DNA from: Bdellovibrio bacteriovorus
GTDB lineage: Bacteria > Bdellovibrionota > Bdellovibrionia > Bdellovibrionales > Bdellovibrionaceae
Direction of reading: 5' to 3'
DNA length: 64,000 bases
Assembly: GCF_002208115.1 (NCBI RefSeq)
Contig: NZ_CP020946.1
Coordinates: forward strand, 1,922,001-1,986,000
Shown here piece by piece: positions 6,259-50,777 of this stretch. The number at the start of each line of letters is the position of its first letter. Position 1 is the stretch's first letter. Under the pieces are notes generated by a model. It worked only from the letters and a program-made list of their open reading frames with translations. It was not told the DNA's origin and did no database searches. The position numbers were made by a program, and so were the translations under genes.

Positions 6259-6273
6259 GTCTCAACTTGAGAC
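6259..6273. promoter_or_regulatory. Perfect 15-base palindrome, candidate operator (copy 1)
   Basis: GTCTCAACTTGAGAC, 7-base arms around a single base, 23 bases upstream of the sigma-28-type -35 element at 6296. An identical word occurs at 50751-50765. A further CTTGAGA half-site lies at 6281. Confidence 0.55.
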
Positions 6274-6295
6274 TTCTAAACTTGAGAAGATTTCC

Positions 6296-6322
6296 TAAAG
6301 TCCGCCCGACCAACGCCGATAA
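6296..6322 (+). promoter_or_regulatory. Sigma-28 (FliA)-type promoter
   Basis: TAAAGTCC (6296-6303), an 11-base spacer, then GCCGATAA (6315-6322). This compares with the FliA consensus TAAAGTTT-N11-GCCGATAA: 6 of 8 in the -35, 8 of 8 in the -10, exact spacing. The predicted start is near 6329, at a 12-base palindrome TGTCTTAAGACA (6329-6340), giving a leader of about 49 bases for the gene at 6378. Confidence 0.8.
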
Positions 6323-6377
6323 GTCTTATGTCTTAAGACAATCAACCAGCTTAAGATTTCATCTGGAGGTCACACGT

Positions 6378-6599
6378 ATGGCTGACAAAAAATTTGATAA
6401 ACAGATCCCGAACAATGTAGTTTCCCTTGAATCTGCTCGCTGCTGCGGCGAAGGCTGCAAAAAGAAATCCGATAAAGCAGGTTTCTGCGCAGAGCACTTT
6501 GACTGGTTTAAAGCCGGCCTGATCACTAAAGAAGGCATGAATGCGCCGGACTTCGACAAGAAGTTCTATCACTATACGGCAGCCAAAAAAGTGGCTTAA
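6378..6599 (+). CDS. Small Cys-cluster protein, probable zinc-binding, behind FliA-type promoter
   Basis: A 73-residue cytoplasmic protein of unknown function. Residues 22-40 hold Cys-Cys-x3-Cys-x9-Cys-x2-His (CCGEGCKKKSDKAGFCAEH), a likely metal-binding knuckle, followed by a basic/aromatic tail. ATG 6378 is chosen because it has a TGGAGGT ribosome-binding site 8 bases upstream; the longer frame from 6267 would start inside the promoter. The near-consensus sigma-28 promoter suggests expression together with flagellar or attack-phase genes, and the abutting palindromes suggest extra control. A terminator follows at 6629. Confidence 0.85.
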   Translation: MADKKFDKQIPNNVVSLESARCCGEGCKKKSDKAGFCAEHFDWFKAGLITKEGMNAPDFDKKFYHYTAAKKVA

Positions 6600-11490: not shown

Positions 11491-11808
11491 ATGAAATTTG
11501 CCCTGTGGTTAACGGCTCTTCTGATGATCGTTCCTCAATTTGTCAAAGGGGCTCCTGAACGCATGACTTCTGATCAAAACGCGTCCAGCGCCACAGTGAC
11601 AAATGAGGAACTGAAACGAAAACCAGCCAACACTCAGAAGGAATCCCCTCTTCTGCCCTGTGCAGGGGAAGCACATCGGGACAAACTGGGTGATATGGCC
11701 CGACTTGAAAGCACGACCCGCGACTGCCCTGCTGAAGGAGCTATTAAAGCTCAACCGATCAGACCCGCGGATCCTGCTGAACCAGGCCGTCCTCTGAGAT
11801 ATCAGTAG
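11491..11808 (+). CDS. Small secreted protein of unknown function
   Basis: A 105-residue protein with a clear signal peptide (KFALWLTALLMIVPQFVKGA) and a hydrophilic, probably disordered mature part with two Cys (PLLPCAGEAH and TRDCPAEG) that could form a disulfide. It has a very strong ribosome-binding site, AAAGGAGG, 7 bases before ATG 11491. A TATAAT -10 lies at 11463-11468, preceded by two CTTGAG words (11433 and 11456) like those around the shared palindrome at 6259 and 50751. No family is recognised. A bidirectional terminator follows. Confidence 0.75.
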   Translation: MKFALWLTALLMIVPQFVKGAPERMTSDQNASSATVTNEELKRKPANTQKESPLLPCAGEAHRDKLGDMARLESTTRDCPAEGAIKAQPIRPADPAEPGRPLRYQ

Positions 11809-50496: not shown

Positions 50497-50727
50497 CTAC
50501 AAAGTCAGAAAGACCTGCTGGAAGGACACCACAAGGCCCCCTAAGAAAGCCATGGTCATCGTGCCCCAGGCGACAGATTTGTAGAACTTGCCAAGTTGCA
50601 TAGCACCCCGGGCATAGGGCCTTTCTGATGCCAGCACAGGGATGGGCTTTACCATCGTGCGAATGAACTGGTGGCAGCACAGGCAGAATAAAACGACAGA
50701 GATCAGGCTTAGAATAAGTTGTTCCAT
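50497..50727 (-). CDS. Small two-helix membrane protein, unknown function
   Basis: A 76-residue protein with two predicted transmembrane helices (about 5-20 and 53-73) and a short basic loop between. ATG 50727 is preferred; an earlier start would add ten residues crossing the upstream palindrome region. Upstream lie GTCTCAACTTGAGAC (50751-50765) and AGACTTAAGTCT (50766-50777), the first identical to the word before the gene at 6378. It lies between the aldehyde dehydrogenase gene and the Lys-rich protein gene on the same strand. No family recognised. Confidence 0.7.
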   Translation of the reverse strand: MEQLILSLISVVLFCLCCHQFIRTMVKPIPVLASERPYARGAMQLGKFYKSVAWGTMTMAFLGGLVVSFQQVFLTL

Positions 50728-50750
50728 GCTGAACTCTTCGGCAGAAGTCC

Positions 50751-50777
50751 GTCTCAACTTGAGACAGACTTAAGTCT
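50751..50777. promoter_or_regulatory. Paired palindromes, candidate operator (copy 2)
   Basis: GTCTCAACTTGAGAC (50751-50765) abuts AGACTTAAGTCT (50766-50777), both perfect, 24 bases upstream of the start at 50727. The first is identical to 6259-6273; the second resembles TGTCTTAAGACA at 6329-6340. Confidence 0.55.

Follow-up and report, generated by a model that had tools for sequence, protein, structure and literature searches.

A predicted operator, GTCTCA-N3-TGAGAC, beside sigma28 promoters in the Bdellovibrio lineage

Operators that serve a regulon are a known kind of system, and several described ones resemble the palindrome reported here. Activators of the CRP kind use symmetric sites (class I and class II) that lie upstream of promoters at a variable and possibly helically phased distance. 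Our sites are like these in symmetry and in upstream position, but the half-site sequence and the spacing differ, and the partner here appears to be sigma28 polymerase. The Bdellovibrio LexA box, TTAC-N3-GTAA, is also an inverted repeat with an N3 centre and comes from the same lineage; its half-site letters are different, and the targets that we see are not a DNA-repair set. With Lrp/AsnC-type 5-3-5 palindromes and with the NorR site, GTCA-N3-TGAC, the likeness is in the 5-3-5 geometry or the TCA-N3-TGA core, an analogy of shape only.

From the same group of organisms come the sigma28 (FliA) attack-phase promoters of Bdellovibrio bacteriovorus HD100. In the parts of Karunker et al. (2013) available to us, these have the form TTAAG-N16-CCGATA; two thirds of the attack-phase promoters carry FliA boxes, and the others yielded no strong motif (PMC3627812). 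We find the same promoters, TTAAG or TAAAG-N15-16-CCGATA, beside many of our sites. The published survey looked at the 50 bases before each start, and those parts of it report no palindromic companion (PMC3627812); our sites usually lie further upstream, so a survey of that reach would miss most of them. A literature search for exact strings of the motif found none. We consider the operator with its regulon to be a known kind of system and this particular motif to be new.

A palindrome with a fixed spacer

The window, meaning the whole stretch of DNA analysed, is 64,000 bases long and covers positions 1,922,001-1,986,000 of a single-contig B. bacteriovorus genome of 3,769,537 bases. An earlier note on this DNA had pointed to an identical 15-mer near two small genes, and both copies are there: GTCTCAACTTGAGAC, a 15-base palindrome with no mismatch, occurs at 6259-6273 and at 50751-50765. 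The note's argument that such a recurrence is beyond chance stands in part. There are eight perfect 7-1-7 palindromes in the window and the probability that two of them are identical is about 4e-4, but 29 15-mers recur in the window, so that some 15-mer recurs is not rare in itself.

The case for a real motif comes from the whole genome, where GTCTCAACTTGAGAC is one member of a family of the form (Y)G-TCTCA-N3-TGAGA-C(R). Allowing one mismatch, TCTCAA-N-TTGAGA occurs in 38 places, compared with 5 for the reversed control. The exact core TCTCA-N3-TGAGA occurs at 45 sites in the 3.77 Mb, compared with 2 for the control. When the gap was left open from 0 to 14 bases we found 68 matches in total, 45 of them at N3 and 23 shared among the 14 other spacings (about 1.6 each), which puts the Poisson probability of the 45 at about 1e-47. 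The three letters at the centre are free, while those next to the core are fixed (G in 66% of our genome's intergenic sites; for four other genomes the share is 84% of sites), so the flanking G/C stretches the motif to 15 bp.

The sites are also placed in a particular way. Of the 45 exact sites, 35 are intergenic according to a simple gene caller, compared with about 14% of the sequence of the sampled loci (P about 3e-21). Most of these intergenic sites have a gene start within 350 bp, and often two divergent starts. The earlier note's own counter-case, in which the word would be scattered through coding sequence with no promoter bias, is not what the genome-wide scan found.

These counts bear on the idea that the palindrome is an RNA hairpin, a terminator or a chance repeat, to which we give almost no credence. 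One site (L030) does read as a terminator-like hairpin followed by T. Hairpins with a T run at gene ends are isolated cases of this sort, and most sites precede starts. The specificity for one spacing excludes chance, and together with the intergenic placement it refutes this explanation for the bulk of the sites.

The sites are numerous and spread evenly around the chromosome (KS p=0.82 against uniform), as could be expected of a chromosome-organising or nucleoid site of the parS, Noc or MatP kind. We nevertheless hold this reading to be very improbable, as the sites keep a fixed relation to promoter direction, to -10 boxes and to particular genes across genomes. We think it likely that a single dimeric transcription factor of the Bdellovibrio lineage has GTCTCA-N3-TGAGAC as its operator, and that it would do much of its work beside sigma28 promoters.

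In the genus, the motif is enriched in all 20 of the members examined, with 24-58 sites compared with 1-9 for the reversed control. Among the 118 genomes of the order it is enriched in many other families as well, and in several genomes (such as G003, G035, G038 and most small ones) it is missing or no commoner than the control. Between our genome and its close relative G028, 260 of 264 core letters, 50 of 66 centre letters and 2337 of 2596 flank letters are kept, a comparison biased by the fact that only motif-bearing G028 loci were fetched (33 of 54 sites) and that sites of our genome lacking a fetched counterpart drop out.

Further afield, genomes of Ignavibacteriae and Wallbacteria carry several tandem TCTCA-N3-TGAGA pairs that span 33-34 bp (L163, L178, L188, L206, L210, L221, L234; L175, L195, L201, L209), which may or may not be related to our motif. 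Among the matches listed by a scan of the whole collection for tandem sites, none bears a Bdellovibrio title. Double sites also occur upstream of one secreted-protein family in two genera, 61 bp apart in one case (L119, 1501 and 1562) and 74 bp apart in the other (L060, 1502 and 1576).

Sites upstream of and across sigma28 promoters

The sites have a direction with respect to sigma28 promoters. In loci L001-L128, counting boxes no more than 130 bp from an exact site, we find a downstream CCGATAA directed away from the site in 20 cases, and even the shorter CCGATA, with which we counted the opposite orientation, points toward the site in 2 (binomial P 1e-4). In 66 genomes of the family a site followed by CCGATAA was matched 92 times at 5-35 bp and 125 times at 36-66 bp, 217 in all, compared with 1 and 1 for a reversed control that is lenient in that the reversed palindrome is itself rare.

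Measured from the site centre to CCGATAA, the distances fall into a fixed class at 16 bp, in which the TCAAG letters of the -35 lie within the palindrome, and a second class at 25 bp or more, with almost no sites between 20 and 27. Most sigma28-linked sites are 28-73 bp upstream of the -10. A 10-bp periodicity of the distances is visible and weak (jitter-null p=0.03 in the non-genus genomes, after dropping one of two orthologous rows, G136/G080, and four values below 25), and as a sign of activation we take it as suggestive only.

Not every site belongs to such a promoter. In the loci of our own genome CCGATA is not enriched upstream of site-bearing starts (10 of 50, compared with 13 of 89 other starts), so operators also occur away from sigma28 promoters, and some sigma28 promoters lack one. 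The majority of sites have no recognisable sigma28 promoter beside them.

Site 1 of the window is an example of the upstream layout. Operator 1 (6259-6273) is a perfect GTCTCA-N3-TGAGAC whose core is kept in orthologous promoters. It is directly adjoined by a weaker, degenerate copy that the earlier note missed, TTCTAAACTTGAGAA at 6274-6288, which has 9 of the 12 core letters and is also present in G028 and G014. Downstream on the plus strand come a -35, TAAAG (6296-6300), and a -10, CCGATAA (6316-6322), which together give a predicted sigma28 promoter, TAAAG-N15-CCGATA, close to the consensus TTAAG-N16-CCGATA as it appears in the available parts of the survey (PMC3627812). The centre of operator 1 is 50 bp upstream of this -10. 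Transcription would start about 7 nt after the -10, giving a predicted leader at 6329-6377 on the plus strand, and the gene follows at 6378-6599. It encodes a 73-aa protein that is found in 49 of the 66 family genomes and has no match in Pfam or NCBIfam. Since the site lies upstream of the promoter, it would not be in this transcript, which also speaks against an RNA hairpin.

For 30 of the 49 matches we had loci, and in each we scored the 260 bp upstream against the 12 core letters. The best match had at least 10 letters in 21 of the 30, 9 letters in six, and fewer than 9 in three (G076, G136 and G080, all outside the genus); 0.8% of shuffled sequences reached at least 10. CCGATA is upstream of 27 of the 30, including all 24 genus members.

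These 24 genus orthologs differ in how far the site is from the -10. The distance is about 40 in one, 50-51 in six, 62-64 in eight and 74-75 in six, with 55, 59 and 145 once each; the spacing test used 23 of them, leaving out G110, whose best match is the one 145 bp away. An upstream activator could accommodate steps of about one helical turn, which is suggestive, but shared ancestry means that there are few independent spacing events among these genes.

The leader is conserved for its own reasons. It is outside the operator, and it holds a palindrome (6329-6340), a second CTTAAG copy and a ribosome-binding site. Positions 6323-6377 hardly vary within the genus; they include two CTTAAGA copies, about 18 bp from each other, that are both changed in G072, and this stretch may be a DNA element or an RNA element. 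When the leader was examined as an RNA structure, its fold had a z-score of -1.55 and the pairs that were tested showed almost no variation; the predicted hairpin has a 5' arm that is variable and probably not transcribed.

Site 2 is an example of the fixed class. Operator 2, again GTCTCAACTTGAGAC (50751-50765), overlaps the -35 of a minus-strand promoter. Read on that strand the palindrome is TCTCAAGTTGAGA, which contains TCAAG, so that the -35-like TCAAG (50758-50762) is embedded in the operator, as it also is in six orthologous promoters. A -10-like CCGAAGA (50735-50741) stands N16 from the -35, giving TCAAG-N16-CCGAAG, and the ATG is 7 bp past it. The gene (50497-50727, minus strand) encodes a small membrane protein of 76 aa for which a search of Pfam and NCBIfam gave no match. 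Six orthologs (L309, L312, L314, L317, L319, L322) have the canonical CCGATAA 9-10 bp after the same palindrome, a layout that recurs among loci fetched for carrying the pattern and so gives no rate of conservation. Their start codons are 5-9 nt after CCGATAA, and because of this the mRNA of the 50727 gene is probably leaderless.

A family of 68-aa Cys-rich proteins has the same overlap with the -35 in eight fetched genomes (L310, L311, L313, L315, L316, L318, L320, L321) and in G028 (L116), and in our own genome with one changed letter (L049). The family is conserved and zinc-ribbon-like, and its member in our genome is the minus-strand gene beside position 1501 of L049.

The earlier note had also paired each 15-mer with a TTAA-centred palindrome of 12 bases. 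Both are present and perfect, TGTCTTAAGACA at 6329-6340 and AGACTTAAGTCT at 50766-50777, but we rejected them as parts of the operator. AGACTTAAGTCT is absent in the close relative G028 and we judge it coincidental, and TGTCTTAAGACA comes after the sigma28 -10 and lies close to the predicted +1. The window has 17 perfect 12-bp palindromes with about 15.6 expected, so finding one near a given point is weak evidence. The CTTGAG half-sites that the note had seen before the small secreted gene at 11491 are likewise where it put them (11433 and 11456), but they are background, as CTTGAG occurs 41 times in the 64 kb on both strands. What held up was the reading of the palindrome as an operator. It recurs as an inverted repeat with one spacing, it is concentrated in promoter regions with a preferred direction, and it is conserved upstream of orthologs, in 21 of 30 for the 73-aa gene and, among loci selected for the pattern, in the six for the 50727 gene.

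The two layouts point to two actions. An activator beside polymerase would suit the placement upstream of the -35, and a repressor would suit the fixed class that covers the -35. At most sigma28-linked sites a dimer centred 28-73 bp upstream of the -10 would contact sigma28 polymerase and raise transcription. In the families of 76-77-aa membrane proteins and 68-aa Cys-rich proteins, a protein bound over the -35 should block polymerase and so repress. We infer that one protein would do both, with attack-phase timing.

That the protein is purely a repressor we think unlikely. Such a protein would silence attack-phase promoters during growth in prey, acting from the -35 or, at upstream sites, by looping, bending or excluding another factor, and the overlap with the -35 in two small-gene families is what it would predict. 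In G028 there is a site upstream of a Flp-type pilin gene (L091), which from its sequence and position we take to be flp1 (bd0119). The flp1 (bd0119) promoter of HD100 is FliA-responsive in E. coli without any Bdellovibrio factor, in the part of that study available to us (PMC5430801). This favors the pure repressor. Provided that the site was part of the cloned fragment, it also suggests that any activating effect would strengthen transcription without being essential. Against the pure repressor, most sigma28-linked sites are upstream of the -35 and not over or downstream of the promoter, and hardly any occupy the positions immediately before the -35, as one expects of proteins that have to fit beside polymerase.

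Targets, candidate regulators and meaning

The site-associated genes are more varied than the "small-protein genes" that had been proposed as targets, a description that we found too narrow. Three families of small genes do have recurring sites (73 aa, 76-77 aa and 68 aa), but most site-associated genes are of ordinary size. The Pfam scan took 44 of the 45 listed reference proteins, leaving out the wrongly bounded L003:1-1173, and its matches include subtilase, papain-like and M14 peptidases, two YkuD L,D-transpeptidases, DsbA/thioredoxin, glutathione peroxidase, an HD-domain protein, PilZ and Fic. Many of the proteins have exported or lipoprotein-like N-termini. With a crude predictor, enrichment of signal peptides among the targets was not significant (22 of 45 compared with 51 of 149, p=0.08).

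We looked at two candidates for the protein that reads the motif. An XRE-like protein (P0001; gene L013:1562-2371) has a site and a sigma28 promoter of its own upstream, divergent from a small secreted-looking protein. It has no Pfam match and was recognized as XRE-like from its N-terminus. As it is patchily distributed and present in only 12 of the 118 genomes, we rejected it as the general regulator.

The other candidate would replace the single protein by several paralogous regulators, for example the lineage-expanded DUF4423/TIGR02147 family, which would share the recognition sequence and serve few sites each. DUF4423 is present in 108 of the 118 order genomes, with 13 matches in our own, and the 10 genomes without it have 0-5 sites. 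Those 10 are all small, however; a genome with one or two copies can have 13-24 sites (G066, G050 and G110 are examples), and G104 has 18 copies and 5 sites. At the DUF4423/TIGR02147 match loci of our own genome the exact site is present in 0 of 20, and a 10-of-12 match in two. DUF4423 is weakened as the reader of the motif by these counts, and we believe that a set of paralogs is improbable.

Returning to a single regulator, the wider picture that we can draw from it is a tentative one, with somewhat less than an even chance of being right. One ancient regulator, conserved across the order, would make up with sigma28 a second arm of the hunting-to-growth switch, as an activator at phased sites upstream and as a repressor where the site covers the -35; the growth in question is that inside prey. 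The two layouts are a ready test of activation and repression. With a defined 15-bp bait and dozens of predicted targets, the search for the regulator becomes a standard pull-down. The motif bears on how Bdellovibrio moves between attack and growth, beyond the part played by FliA.
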